From Cystobacter ferrugineus (GTDB lineage Bacteria; Myxococcota; Myxococcia; Myxococcales; Myxococcaceae), in contig NZ_MPIN01000003.1 of NCBI RefSeq assembly GCF_001887355.1, positions 569,238 to 633,237 on the forward strand: DNA of 64,000 nt. Direction: 5' to 3'. Below, one piece after another: positions 58,820 to 63,900 of the stretch. The notes under the pieces are model-generated. The model did not search any database. It was given only the letters and a program-made list of their open reading frames with translations, and was not told the DNA's origin. The position numbers and the translations under genes were made by a program. Position 1 is the stretch's first letter. The number at the start of each line of letters is the position of its first letter.

Positions 58820-60247
58820 TCAGCGGGCCCGTCGTCTCGGAACTGCCCGCCACGCAGCGGCGGCGAGGAGCAGTGCCCCGGGGAGTGCTCCAGGGGTGGT
58901 CTGGCACCCGCAGGGAGGCGGCTCGGCTGGGGGGGACTCCGAGGTGATGCGCAGCCGGCCATAGCGGCCGTCTCCCGAGTGGCGCCCGTTCACTACCGCC
59001 ACCACCACGCGCGTGGCGTCCTCGGCGGAAACCTGGGCGGAGAGGACTCCGGGCCCGTCCGCGCGGACGACGCGCAGCACCTCGCGCTCGGTCACCGCCG
59101 CCACCAGCAGGTGCAGCCCCGCGCTGTCCGTGCCCTCCCTCGGCTCGAAGGATGCGGAGACGCTCGGCGTCCCGCCCGGCACGTCGAAGTAGCGCGTCGA
59201 GGCGGCCGCCACCCGTACCGAGGGCTCGTCCACCGGCAGGTCCCTGGCGGCGGAAACGAGCCCGGAGTAGCCCGCGCCCCGTGCGTACCCGCTGCCTTCC
59301 CGCGCGTGCTCCCCGGTGGCCAGGTTCCACGCGGCGAACTCGCTGAACGCGGTGTCGAAGTCCGTGCCCGCGTCGCGGCGCAGGACCGTGTCGAGCAGCT
59401 CCGCCCAGTGCGAGGAGGGCGCGCGAACGCTCTCCTCCCACATCGCCCGGATCACCTCGTCGCCCAGTCGCTCGCCGAGGAACTGGAAGAAGAGCGCGGC
59501 CCCATAGCTGAAGGACTGCGCCGGTCCGTCCGGTTCCACCACCAGGCTGCGATCCGCGCGCGACAGGTACGCCGGGACGAAGTGCTCCAGGTCGTCCAGC
59601 TCGGGCGCGAAGCGCTCGGAGGCCCACACCGCCGTGCCTTCCTCCGCCACGCGTCCGAGCGCCGTGCCATACGCGGCCTGCACGGCGTGGAAGAACTCAT
59701 GGCTCGCGAGCGTCGTCACGGCCTGGTCGTAGGAGGCATATCCGTAGCCGGCGAAGTCGTTCTCCTGGAGCATGTACCCGCGGCAGCCCTGTTCCACCAA
59801 GAGGCAGTCCTCCCGCCGGAAGGCCCCATCCGCCCGTCCGGCGAAGTCCACCAGGTACACGTCGAAGCGTCCGTCGCCTCCCGCCTCGCCGGAGCCTCCG
59901 GAGTCCTCGGGCGGCGAGCGGTAGCCCAAACCCGCGTAGAAGGCCGCCACGGCATCGTAGGTGCGCGCCACGGTGTCCACGGCGTCAGGAATCCCGTCGC
60001 CATCCGCGTCCGCCGGCGCCACCGCGTTGGGTCCGCTCCGTGAGAAGTGGATCCGGAAGCGGCCCCCGGGAGACACCACCGACTCCACCGGTTCGCCGGG
60101 CTCGAAGCGCGGTGGCTCCGCCGTGGCTTCGGTGGGCCGTCCCCCCTGGAGCAGTGTCCGCGCCTCTTCCTCGAACACCTCATGCGGTGGCCGCTCCGGG
60201 CCGCCACATCCGACGAGCAGGAGCAGCGGCCACACGGAGCGCCTCAT
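58820..60247 (-). CDS. MXAN_6640-type putative metalloprotease with MYXO-CTERM signal
   Basis: This is a 475-aa exported protein; ATG 60247 overlaps the upstream stop (ATGA). A lipobox-like L-L-L-V-G-C-G-G lies near the N-terminus. The middle has D-A-D-G-D-G-I-P-D-A-V-D (calcium loop) and, at about residues 180-191, A-S-H-E-F-F-H-A-V-Q, an H-E-x-x-H zinc site with a downstream E-E-G-T-A-V-W. The C-terminus ends P-P-C-G-C, a hydrophobic helix and R-A-V-P-R-R-R-A-R, a MYXO-CTERM sorting tail for surface display. It is last in the TonB receptor-HmuY-HmuY operon, so it may act on host or prey proteins that supply heme/iron. Homologues are annotated only as putative metalloproteases. Confidence 0.85.
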   Translation of the reverse strand: MRRSVWPLLLLVGCGGPERPPHEVFEEEARTLLQGGRPTEATAEPPRFEPGEPVESVVSPGGRFRIHFSRSGPNAVAPADADGDGIPDAVDTVARTYDAVAAFYAGLGYRSPPEDSGGSGEAGGDGRFDVYLVDFAGRADGAFRREDCLLVEQGCRGYMLQENDFAGYGYASYDQAVTTLASHEFFHAVQAAYGTALGRVAEEGTAVWASERFAPELDDLEHFVPAYLSRADRSLVVEPDGPAQSFSYGAALFFQFLGERLGDEVIRAMWEESVRAPSSHWAELLDTVLRRDAGTDFDTAFSEFAAWNLATGEHAREGSGYARGAGYSGLVSAARDLPVDEPSVRVAAASTRYFDVPGGTPSVSASFEPREGTDSAGLHLLVAAVTEREVLRVVRADGPGVLSAQVSAEDATRVVVAVVNGRHSGDGRYGRLRITSESPPAEPPPCGCQTTPGALPGALLLAAAAWRAVPRRRAR

Positions 60248-61035
60248 GGCAGGAAGGCCCACCGGATGCGCAGTTGGGCCGCGCCGCTGGGCTGGGGCAC
60301 CTCGCCCGTCTCGTTGCAGACCCGTTGCGGCTCCGGATCGTAGTAATCCGTCACCTGAAGCTTCACATGCTTGCCATCCGCCAGGCGCAGCACGAACACC
60401 GCGCCGGTCATGGACAGACAGGCCTCATAGCCCCAGAAATCCTCCAGCCGCGTCGCCAGGCCCAGGGTGTACTGTCCGGGGATGGCCTCACAGGACTCGG
60501 TGAAGTAGTCCTCGGTGCGGAACTCCCAGGCGGCATCCACCGCCGTCACCGACTCGAAGGTCGTGCCCGCCGGAGTCCGAGCCACCGCGACGCACGAAGG
60601 GCCAGACACGCCGCTGTTCACCCGGAGGGTGTAGCGGCGCAAGGCGATGTCCCAGTCCGTCGAGGCCAGGGCCGCCTGATCATCCACCGCCACCCGGCTC
60701 AGTCCCTGGGGCGTGAAGCGGCCATAGGTATACGACTGCGTGGCGGAGGCGCCTCCCGCTCGCGCGTCCACATAGGTGTGGAACTCGCCCGCGGTCGTTC
60801 CCTCCTCGCGGATCTCTCCCGTGGAGACCGTGGTGAGCAGGTTCAATTGATCGATGCTCTGCTCCGCGCAGCGCACCAGGCTCGCCTCGCACCGCGGGGC
60901 GGCCGGAGATGGCTCCACGGGCTCGTTGACGCCACAGGCGCCCAGCAGCAGGGTCAGCGTCAGGGCGGTGGTGCTCCAGGTGCCTCGCGGTGCGCCGTGC
61001 ATCACTCGGGTCTCGGGGAATGGGCCGTTCTTCAT
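60244..61035 (-). CDS. HmuY-like heme-binding lipoprotein 2
   Basis: This is a 263-aa lipoprotein with lipobox L-L-L-G-A-C at about residues 29-34. The mature part has HmuY-type strands: T-D-W-D-I-A-L-R-R-Y-T-L-R-V-N-S-G-V-S-G near the middle and A-D-G-K-H-V-K-L-Q-V-T-D-Y-Y-D near the end, the usual positions in this family. HmuY proteins capture heme at the cell surface and pass it to a TonB-dependent receptor. It is a paralogue of the preceding gene's product. Stop and next start overlap by four bases. A later ATG (61002) is possible. Confidence 0.82.
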   Translation of the reverse strand: MKNGPFPETRVMHGAPRGTWSTTALTLTLLLGACGVNEPVEPSPAAPRCEASLVRCAEQSIDQLNLLTTVSTGEIREEGTTAGEFHTYVDARAGGASATQSYTYGRFTPQGLSRVAVDDQAALASTDWDIALRRYTLRVNSGVSGPSCVAVARTPAGTTFESVTAVDAAWEFRTEDYFTESCEAIPGQYTLGLATRLEDFWGYEACLSMTGAVFVLRLADGKHVKLQVTDYYDPEPQRVCNETGEVPQPSGAAQLRIRWAFLP

Positions 61036-61057
61036 GGGGGTCGTCCTTGCTCGTCTG

Positions 61058-61699
61058 TCAGGGAAGGGAAGGGCTCGGTGGATCCACCTGCTTCCACCGG
61101 AAGGAGATCACCGCGGGAGAGCCAGCCGGATCGTAGTAGCTCAGCATCCGCAGCTTGAAGTAGCGGCCCTCGTCGGTGCGCAGGACGTAGGTCCGCGCGC
61201 GCGGCGTGAGTGTATGGGTCATCACGTCGTAGCTGTACCAGCCGTCCTCCACCCGCTCGAAGACGTTGTCCGGCTCGCTGTCCGTGTCGTCGCCGTCCGC
61301 GGCATCCTCGTGATAGCCCGAGCCGGGCGCCTGGGTGAGCGACTCGAAGGCGTCCGGGAGCAGCGCCACTTCGACGCCGCCCGTACCGTTGACGCCTCCG
61401 CGGGTGCGGATGTGGAAGCGCTGGAAGGACAGATCCCAGGCGGACTGCACGGCGGCATCCGCGGCCTCGCCCGTGTCGAGATCCAGGGCGCGCCACGCCG
61501 CCCCATCGGTCGCGTCGACGATCGTGGTCACCGTGCCGTCCGCCTCGCGGGTATGGCGGAACACGGCGGGCGGCTCGCCGCCGGCGGGCTGCTGGGGGCC
61601 AGGCTCAGGTTGGATGTCCCCACCACATGCGGCGAGGCCGAGCAGCAGGAAAGGGGCGGGGGCCCAGCGGTGTCGCGACTGCCTGGCAATGCGTTGCAT
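61058..61699 (-). CDS. HmuY-like heme-binding lipoprotein 1
   Basis: This is a 213-aa lipoprotein from ATG 61699 behind GGGAGG; lipobox G-L-A-A-C at Cys25. It has family strands S-A-W-D-L-S-F-Q-R-F-H-I-R-T-R-G-G-V-N-G and T-D-E-G-R-Y-F-K-L-R-M-L-S-Y-Y-D, closely matching those of the next gene. It lies 10 bases after the TonB-dependent receptor gene. It presumably binds heme or a related iron complex for that receptor. Histidines are few, so the exact ligand is open. Confidence 0.85.
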   Translation of the reverse strand: MQRIARQSRHRWAPAPFLLLGLAACGGDIQPEPGPQQPAGGEPPAVFRHTREADGTVTTIVDATDGAAWRALDLDTGEAADAAVQSAWDLSFQRFHIRTRGGVNGTGGVEVALLPDAFESLTQAPGSGYHEDAADGDDTDSEPDNVFERVEDGWYSYDVMTHTLTPRARTYVLRTDEGRYFKLRMLSYYDPAGSPAVISFRWKQVDPPSPSLP

Positions 61700-61709
61700 G
61701 CTTCCTCCC

Positions 61710-63626
61710 TCACACGTTGAGGATGAGCCCCGCGTAGAAGGCGCGGGGCGGAATGGGCAGGTAGTTCGGATCTCCCGCGCCCAGCAGGTTGCGGCCGGCG
61801 ACGAAGAGCCGGATCGACTCCAGCACCCCATGGGCGAGCCGAGCATCCAGGGTCGCATAGGCGGGGGCGTGGACGGTTCGCGCCGTGCCGTCGGGGGCCT
61901 GGTAGTAGGGGCGGGGGCCCACCCAGGAGCCCTGCACGGACGCCTCCAGGCGCCAGGGCCGGTAGCGCAGGCCGAGCTGCGTGGTGAGCCGATGCGCGCT
62001 CTGTCCCTCGAGGGGCCGGTCCTCCTCGAGATCCCGTGCGTGGATGAACGTGTAGCCCACGTCCAGCCAGGCCCCGAGCGGCAGCCGCTGCTTCCAGCCC
62101 ACCTCGGCGCCCTGCACGGTGGCGCGCGCGACGTTGTCGTAGGTGAAGCGCAGGGTGGGGGAGAGGGGATCCTGCACCACGGTGATCATGTCGGAGAGGT
62201 CGTTGCGGAACAGGTTCGTCCACAGGAGGCTCCGGCCGCCGACCCGCCACTCCGCGGAGACGGTCGCGCCGCGCGAGTGCTCGGGGCGCAGCGCGGGGTT
62301 GCCCGCGACCACGTAGCCCACGCTGGGGTTCTCGAAGTCGATGAGCTGTTCCTGGAAGCTCGGCGCCCGGAAGGCGAGGCCGTAGCTGGCGCGCACCGTG
62401 AGCGCCTCCACCGGCTCCAGCCGCACGGCGAGCCGGGGGGTGAGCACCGCGCCGAACTCGGAGTCCACGTCCAGCCGCAGGCCGGGCACGACGTGGAGCG
62501 CCACCGGCAGGGGGGTCTTCCAGGAGTCCTGTCCGTAGAGGGACAACCGGCCGCGCTGGCCCGGGCTCGAGAGCCGATCGGAGTCGAGTGTCTCGCCAAT
62601 CGCCTCGACGCCCACCACGAGCTGGTGCACCTGGGCCAGGGTCTGGTCGAGCTGGAGGCCCACCCGTGCCATCTGCTCGCGCGTCTCCTCCACCTGATCC
62701 AGCGCGGAGGATTGGCGTTGATCCAACACGTAGCGGTGGCGGAAGCGCGAGTAGCGGCCCGAGAGCTGGAGCGAGCCGGTGGGGGAGAGCACCCACGAGG
62801 GGGACAGCGTCACTTCCTGACTCTCGTTCTGGCTCGCGCGATCGAACAGCGCGCCCGCCGCGCCCTCGTCGACGCCCCGTTGGACCTGGCGGGACGCACC
62901 GGCCCGGGCCTCGAGCCGGAATGCGTCCGTCACGCGCACGTCCCCACGTCCGGAGACCTGGAAGCCCTCGAGCGAGCTGCCCGTGGTGGCCGGAGTGTCG
63001 GGGGTCAGGTCGTAGCCATCCCGGCGCTGGAAGCCGCCGCTGAGCCGCAGTCCCGCTCGTTCTCCGCGCAGCTCCGCGGAGCCATCCGCCTCGAACTGCC
63101 ACAGGCCGCCGAGCGAGGCCTGGGCCGTGGCGCCCAGGGGCCGCTGGGCCTTGCGGGTGATGATGTTCACCACGCCCGCCACGGCGTCGCTGCCATAGAG
63201 GACCGAGGACGGGCCCCGGATGATCTCCACCTGCTCGATGTCCTCCGTGGAGAACCGGGAGAAATCCAGGGCGCCGCCGAGCCGTCCCGTCACGCGCTCG
63301 CCGTCCACCAGCACGAGGGTGTACTCGGGGGACATTCCCTGGACCCGCAGCTCCGTGCCCGCGAAGCCGCGCCGCAGCTCCAGGCCGGGACGCGCGCCCA
63401 GCGCCTCGGCCAGATCCCTCGCGCCCGTGGCCTCGATGTCCTTGCGGGTGATGACCTCGACGGCCACCGGTGTGTCCTGGAGCCGCTCCACCGAGCGCGA
63501 AGCCGTCACCACCGTCTGTATCACCGGCGGCTCCTCCGCGACCCCTCCGTCCACGGACGGCTCGCCCTGCTGTGCCAGCACCGGCACGCTCACGAGCAAC
63601 CCGAGAACCCATCCCATCCAGCGCAT
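61710..63626 (-). CDS. TonB-dependent outer-membrane receptor (heme/iron uptake type)
   Basis: This is a 638-aa outer-membrane protein; signal peptide to about residue 18. A TonB box-like T-V-V-T-A-S-R is followed by the plug (about 45-160; A-L-G-A-R-P-G-L, V-D-G-E-R-V, I-R-G-P-S-S-V-L-Y-G-S-D-A-V-A-G-V-V-N) and a 22-strand barrel ending in the C-terminal strand F-Y-A-G-L-I-L-N-V. F-R-A-P-S-F-Q-E and N-P-x-L-R-P-E are characteristic of heme and siderophore receptors. It heads an operon with two HmuY-like lipoproteins and a metalloprotease, and a Fur-box-like site lies 47-65 bases upstream. Heme uptake is favoured; other iron sources are possible. Confidence 0.93.
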   Translation of the reverse strand: MRWMGWVLGLLVSVPVLAQQGEPSVDGGVAEEPPVIQTVVTASRSVERLQDTPVAVEVITRKDIEATGARDLAEALGARPGLELRRGFAGTELRVQGMSPEYTLVLVDGERVTGRLGGALDFSRFSTEDIEQVEIIRGPSSVLYGSDAVAGVVNIITRKAQRPLGATAQASLGGLWQFEADGSAELRGERAGLRLSGGFQRRDGYDLTPDTPATTGSSLEGFQVSGRGDVRVTDAFRLEARAGASRQVQRGVDEGAAGALFDRASQNESQEVTLSPSWVLSPTGSLQLSGRYSRFRHRYVLDQRQSSALDQVEETREQMARVGLQLDQTLAQVHQLVVGVEAIGETLDSDRLSSPGQRGRLSLYGQDSWKTPLPVALHVVPGLRLDVDSEFGAVLTPRLAVRLEPVEALTVRASYGLAFRAPSFQEQLIDFENPSVGYVVAGNPALRPEHSRGATVSAEWRVGGRSLLWTNLFRNDLSDMITVVQDPLSPTLRFTYDNVARATVQGAEVGWKQRLPLGAWLDVGYTFIHARDLEEDRPLEGQSAHRLTTQLGLRYRPWRLEASVQGSWVGPRPYYQAPDGTARTVHAPAYATLDARLAHGVLESIRLFVAGRNLLGAGDPNYLPIPPRAFYAGLILNV

Positions 63627-63672
63627 CCGCGGCCCCTTCGAGAAGGTGACGCTCCGCGTCCTAGTTGAAATA

Positions 63673-63691
63673 GATAATCAAAGTCAATTTC
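63673..63691. promoter_or_regulatory. Fur-box-like operator
   Basis: GATAATCAAAGTCAATTTC matches the 19-bp Fur consensus at 14 of 19 positions and lies in the only AT-rich stretch upstream of the TonB receptor start. Iron-repressed expression of the operon is expected. The flanking TGAAAT/ATTTCA gives a wider, imperfect dyad. Confidence 0.6.
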
Positions 63692-63733
63692 AGAATATGG
63701 GAGATGTCGAGCGGCCCGTGCCAGAAAAGGAAG

Positions 63734-63766
63734 GGGGAGACAGTGCCCGGTGGGCGCTGTCTCCCC
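63734..63766 (-). terminator. intrinsic terminator
   Basis: GGGGAGACAG and CTGTCTCCCC form a perfect 10-bp stem extended by T-G wobble and GCCC/GGGC around a GGT loop, fifteen pairs in all. Reading leftward, the stem is followed by CCTTCCTTTTC, so it should stop transcripts coming from the gene ending at 63901. It protects the Fur-controlled promoter from read-through. Confidence 0.8.
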
Positions 63767-63900
63767 GCTATGCCGCCGCTCCGCGCTGCGCTGAGTTGTG
63801 GCATTCGCCGCGATCAACGCGGCCGTCTCCGCTCACTCCTCGGCGAGAGAGGAGGGGGGGAGCCAGGGCGCGTCCGTGTCGGCTCGGCTCCCCCGATGGG

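Follow-up and report, generated by a model that had tools for sequence, protein, structure and literature searches.

The hmuYRSTUV operon of Porphyromonas and Bacteroides sets a lipoprotein of the HmuY fold beside a TonB receptor. Gingipains are cysteine proteases that are encoded elsewhere and have many roles. In P. gingivalis, gingipain proteolysis of hemoproteins has been proposed to free heme for HmuY, and HmuY homologs were noted in Myxococcus and Stigmatella in 2009 (PMC2671838). The locus described here lies in a stretch of 64,000 nucleotides from Cystobacter ferrugineus, the whole of which is called the window. Like the hmuYRSTUV operon it pairs a receptor with an HmuY, and in myxobacterial relatives of the locus the likeness extends to HemS, an HmuT-like protein and a permease; what sets it apart is an additional HmuY distinct from the first, a dedicated metalloprotease of the cell surface, and a receptor that comes before the HmuY (Table 1). 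By contrast with the large HmuS de-chelatase of Bacteroidota (PMC12583661), myxobacterial HemS proteins are of the HemS/ChuS type, and a search of the window's own genome found no HemS. Proteolysis feeding an HmuY is common to the gingipain proposal and to the present one, but the enzyme here is a zinc protease genetically paired with one HmuY subfamily. The operon can be regarded as a variant of the Hmu heme-acquisition system, and no earlier description of the HmuYb-protease pair or of its Fur box was found in the open-licence literature.

The four genes, re-derived from the sequence, lie on the minus strand in the order receptor, HmuYa, HmuYb and protease, with spacings of 10, 22 and -4 bases. 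Order, strand and spacing all reproduce the original prediction, and from the spacing we infer that the genes form a single transcript. Scanning the region for consensus promoters and terminators returned nothing exceeding chance. A strong GC-rich inverted repeat (63731-63767), spotted by eye and absent from the output of that scan, separates the Fur-like box of the operon from the end of the minus-strand gene upstream and is possibly the terminator of the latter. The operon joins two modules, A (receptor and HmuYa) and B (HmuYb and protease), and is best explained, with a probability of about 0.55, as a heme acquisition operon of the outer membrane under iron control, in which the protease would free heme for HmuYb to catch. 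Within this explanation, iron/heme acquisition is well supported by gene neighbourhood, phylogeny and predicted operators, and the release of heme by the protease, argued by analogy, is the most likely reading; the "predatory" route that the original prediction proposed is unsupported.

Table 1. Features of the window operon, and M28-peptidase operons in other loci.
Feature	Coordinates	Strand	Evidence
TonB-dependent receptor (HmuR-like), 638 aa	61710..63626	-	Pfam Plug and TonB_dep_Rec barrel; receptor tree
HmuYa, HmuY-family lipoprotein of module A, 213 aa, lipobox LAAC	61058..61699	-	PF14064, 51.6 bits; alignment with invariant H162
HmuYb, HmuY-family lipoprotein of module B, 263 aa, sharply distinct subfamily	60244..61035	-	PF14064, 48.7 bits; AlphaFold model; subfamily bit gap
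Predicted surface zinc metalloprotease, MXAN_6640 family, 475 aa, HEFFH at 183-187, N-terminal lipobox, MYXO-CTERM-type tail	58820..60247	-	NF045524, 264.8 bits
ATGA stop/start overlap of HmuYb and protease, 4 bases	60244..60247	-	Sequence; possible in most orthologous pairs
Fur-like operator, GATAATCAAAGTCAATTTC on the + strand	63673..63691	-	14/19 to Fur consensus
HmuYb-receptor-HmuYa operons with a final M28 peptidase	L206 773-3580; L207 64-3240; L120 9055-12231; L125 4459-7266		

Module A is sister to the hmuR-hmuY genes of Myxococcus- and Corallococcus-type genomes, where they precede HemS, an HmuT-like protein and an FecCD permease. In about 19 loci receptor and HmuYa are followed by a HemS/ChuS-type protein (PF05171, 278 bits), and the hemS loci that were examined also contain, nearby, a Peripla_BP_2 (HmuT-like) binding protein and an FecCD permease, a gene set that matches an hmuRYSTUV operon. 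The window receptor falls into a clade of 22 receptors (starred in the receptor tree; support 97/96) with 13 members from hemS operons, and is 51-54% identical to the hemS-operon receptors. The assignment of module A to the myxobacterial hmuRYSTUV-type heme-uptake lineage is supported by this placement, which also bears out the heme-uptake setting originally given to receptor and HmuYa. The window's genome has two heme-oxygenase-family genes, the products of which could open the heme ring. It also contains a second receptor-HmuY locus (L005, G000:C2:724462), whose receptor falls in a different clade (42% identity); a search of the 1.6 kb upstream in its relatives L199 and L212 yielded no Fur box. 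In genus g7 (L190 6988-8565; similar in L014, L017, L019 and L024), HmuYa is enlarged to one open frame with three tandem HmuY matches, and stands in front of HemS wherever HemS is seen.

Both window HmuYs exceed the Pfam PF14064 (HmuY) cut-off of 27 bits and are assigned to the HmuY family. The AlphaFold model of HmuYb (pLDDT 86.4) has a predicted HmuY fold, with Z-scores of 11.8-16.4 against solved HmuYs; the match to P. gingivalis HmuY (3h8t; Z 16.4, rmsd 2.9, 146 residues) is level with that to BfrB (Z 15.7). The HmuYa alignment contains a single invariant histidine, while no invariant His or Met was found in that of HmuYb, where M209 (47/48) and H223 (43/48) come nearest; canonical axial heme ligands were identified in neither protein. 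HmuYb conserves four invariant or near-invariant cysteines, which may form disulfides, and the invariant residues Y104, R134, R138, Y203, K225 and Y232. In profile searches BfrB (8b6a) is the top match for both proteins and BfrC (8b61) the second for HmuYb. These nearest solved HmuYs are atypical: BfrB binds heme and PPIX without iron coordination and prefers PPIX, and BfrC binds neither (PMC12106395). For this reason heme binding by HmuYa and HmuYb is set no higher than plausible.

The kinship with the PPIX-preferring BfrB also bears on the nature of the ligand, which might be not heme but protoporphyrin, another tetrapyrrole (e.g., a corrinoid) or a metal, freed by the protease from other proteins. 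The receptor scores point partly the same way. Against the TonB-hemin receptor model TIGR01785 the window receptor reaches 164.6 bits, short of the cut-off of 316.85, and its best NCBIfam score, below all cut-offs, is to the vitamin B12 receptor model BtuB (TIGR01779); moreover, no His was found between the FRAP and NPNL (NPxL) motifs in the window receptor or in the relatives where the motif was found. However, sister receptors lie in operons with HemS and predicted Fur boxes precede both modules, and a ligand other than heme is considered quite unlikely.

When the four window proteins were compared by BLAST with loci of ~14 kb from related genomes, the protease was nearly always preceded by HmuYb, with a 4-base stop/start overlap possible in most loci, and the receptor and HmuYa were usually located elsewhere than this pair. 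Across 96 genomes of the family, an HmuYb profile separates HmuYb (about 264 bits and more) from other HmuYs (54 and less), and HmuYb and protease are both present in 59 and both absent from 37, with no exception. A full protease ortholog occurs in 58 genomes, all 58 of which have HmuYb; in the only further HmuYb genome (G047), the protease is cut by the contig end right next to HmuYb. The two genes are adjacent in 56 genomes, on the same strand and at most 124 bases apart in aligned sequence. Named genomes with the HmuYb subfamily include Myxococcus, Corallococcus, Hyalangium, Pyxidicoccus, Sorangium, Polyangium and Nannocystis, together with Sandaracinus MAGs. Among the best 80 HmuYb loci phylum-wide, the protease lies directly downstream in 57, is divergent in five and stands in reversed order in one; three loci end at a contig edge, and in 14 the protease is missing from the searched position. 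Three of these 14 have receptor-HmuYa directly after HmuYb (L120, L122 and L125), a few have the protease 1-2 kb off, and some are second copies in genomes that also contain the pair.

The pair thus recurs across the phylum Myxococcota, usually as a pair, and the description of module B (HmuYb and an M30-like protease) as a co-inherited pair with overlapping genes, often with its own Fur box, is supported by these sequence comparisons. Because HmuYb and protease co-occur without exception and stay adjacent, chance linkage is hard to hold and can be ruled out, and the recurrence of the pair in other genomes likewise rules out the protease as a strain-specific passenger; the linkage on which the original prediction was built is no accident of one strain. 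One Myxococcaceae genome without HmuYb (L102, G078:C44) retains broken remnants of a protease-like gene, which fits joint loss of the pair.

So strict a pairing, with a gene overlap involving HmuYb specifically, would also fit an enzyme and its substrate. The protease might act as a sheddase or maturase that, on the cell surface, clips the HmuY lipoproteins or the receptor and frees or activates a soluble hemophore, with no digestion of hemoproteins, and the distance of the pair from any receptor in most genomes agrees with this. However, HmuYb has a compact predicted fold with four cysteines possibly in disulfides, HmuY of P. gingivalis withstands that organism's own proteases (PMC2671838), and some lineages have HmuYb beside a receptor and a different peptidase; we regard such a role as unlikely.

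The perfect co-occurrence could alternatively mean that HmuYb is no hemophore but works with the protease as its inhibitor, chaperone or substrate-docking subunit, having borrowed the HmuY fold. No canonical axial ligand pair was identified in HmuYb, BfrC-type HmuYs bind no tetrapyrrole (PMC12106395), and at the reversed-order locus L129 the two genes read as a single open frame. A true fusion at L129 was rejected: the junction contains an entire MYXO-CTERM tail and a new lipoprotein signal, so the frame more likely represents two genes between which a stop codon was lost or an indel arose. A partner role is at odds with L120, L122 and L125, where HmuYb directly precedes receptor-HmuYa and this protease is not adjacent, and with the predicted Fur box in the HmuYb promoter; like shedding, it has little probability in our judgement.

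The combinations of the two modules are varied. Only in the window's genus (G000, G032 and G033) and in a second, neighbouring genus (G004, G006 and G007) was the four-gene order A-B found; in the latter a DUF6607 gene lies 6-7 bases before the receptor. G034, which also belongs to the window's genus, lacks module A next to its module B. What is conserved is HmuYb with the protease. The four-gene operon as a conserved unit is ruled out in favour of two modules, with the pair usually apart from the receptor. Other arrangements are convergent (L077), B-A (L165) and HmuYb-receptor-HmuYa (L120, L122 and L125), and in L128 the order HmuYb-protease-receptor-HmuYa is divergent from HmuT-like and HemS genes. 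On the receptor tree, where some positions are on long branches, linkage to HmuYb has to change state at least four times, so the linkage of receptor and HmuYb appears to have been gained or lost repeatedly; modules A and B seem to have been joined several times, in differing orders. In three Corallococcus-type loci (L123, L224 and L225) the two modules are loosely clustered: B lies ~4 kb upstream of A in the same orientation, and other sequence separates them. Loci of myxobacterial type are also carried by records under the names Comamonas, Bifidobacterium breve and Klebsiella pneumoniae (L113, L171 and L179), names that look wrong.

In two lineages, an HmuYb-receptor-HmuYa operon is closed by an unrelated M28 peptidase (PD40 propeller, PA, M28, PDZ), the gene of which overlaps HmuYa by 4 bases in L125 and L206; L206/L125 and L207/L120 are apparently identical contigs obtained via two collections. 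Because an M28 peptidase ends these operons, peptidases seem to have been joined to the heme module more than once. Myxobacteria have many secreted proteases, and the window enzyme could in principle be a general nutritional hydrolase within an ordinary iron-regulated operon, having no functional tie to heme. The frequent location of the pair away from the receptor accords with that, but exceptionless co-inheritance, phylum-wide adjacency and repeated joining to the heme module are hard to explain in this way, and we give it very little credence.

The protease itself is well above the cut-off of 140 bits for NCBIfam NF045524 ("MXAN_6640 family putative metalloprotease") and is a member of that family with the HExxH motif. 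H183, E184, H187 and E203 do not vary among 28 orthologs, and by analogy with other gluzincins E203 would be the third zinc ligand. In the predicted structure (pLDDT 78.8), the nearest fold is that of lugdulysin, a zinc peptidase of M30 (7bb8; Z 21.3, rmsd 3.8, 293 residues), with M1 aminopeptidases well under it (Z about 13-14). No significant sequence relatives were found in the PDB, and the M30 likeness comes from the predicted fold, not from a sequence match. From M30 metallopeptidases such as lugdulysin and hyicolysin the window protease differs in its low identity (11%) and in its predicted anchoring by lipobox and MYXO-CTERM-type tail. A GC-hydrophobic-Arg tail is present in 26 of the 28 orthologs, the window protein included, but at E up to 1 the TIGR03901 (MYXO-CTERM) model matches 11 of the 28, and the window protein is not one of these; the original label of MYXO-CTERM protease is upheld for the tail and not for the model match. 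Lipobox and tail together suggest anchoring at the surface, to which MYXO-CTERM proteins are sorted by myxosortase in M. xanthus (PMC11980579). The model name of the MXAN_6640 family comes without a role, whereas the HmuYb-linked branch is here tied to iron acquisition; no mention of MXAN_6640 or of MXAN_6639-6641 was found in the open-licence literature.

Iron control of the operon, also part of the original prediction, is supported by predicted Fur boxes before both modules. The AT-rich box of the window lies 46-47 bases ahead of the receptor start, at the end of the interval covered by that prediction, and its sequence match (14/19) would place the promoter in the Fur regulon. Genus g3 has a close variant (13/19) upstream of its homologous operon, and in all hemS-type operons tested a box lies 250-380 bases upstream of the called receptor ORF. 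Module-B promoters of Myxococcaceae contain GAAAATGAGAATCGTTATC (16/19 to the Fur consensus) or near variants. A box of at least 15/19 is present in 18 of 32 module-B promoters, while at least 14/19 was reached in none of 640 shuffles, an approximate control in which pairs of bases are preserved only in blocks. Module B loci beyond Myxococcaceae are mostly without this box. In genus g3 a DUF6607 gene lies a few bases before the receptor (L068 3646-4671, L187 3535-4563 and L188 8261-9289), with the Fur-like box in front of it, and DUF6607 may belong to heme uptake.

In the preferred explanation, iron starvation would lift Fur repression and induce the operon, and the surface-anchored protease would nick or degrade hemoproteins of environmental or prey origin. 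HmuYb, produced beside the protease, would capture the freed heme or porphyrin, and heme would then be handed to HmuYa and the receptor for import. The cut-and-catch step is drawn by analogy with gingipains and HmuY (PMC2671838). More tentatively, and short of even odds, HmuYb and the M30-like protease may form a phylum-wide, physically coupled surface device, not known elsewhere, that strips heme or porphyrin from proteins and passes it on to any HmuY/TonB system present in the cell.

These findings offer a putative function for the MXAN_6640 protease family, previously named without one, and single out, among the many proteases that a myxobacterium secretes, those predicted to serve iron nutrition. 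They would also bring the gingipain-HmuY idea to soil predators in a form that is genetically linked and tractable. Iron and predation in myxobacteria have so far been connected via siderophores (PMC9738627); the use of prey or environmental hemoproteins as an iron source by these bacteria now becomes directly testable.
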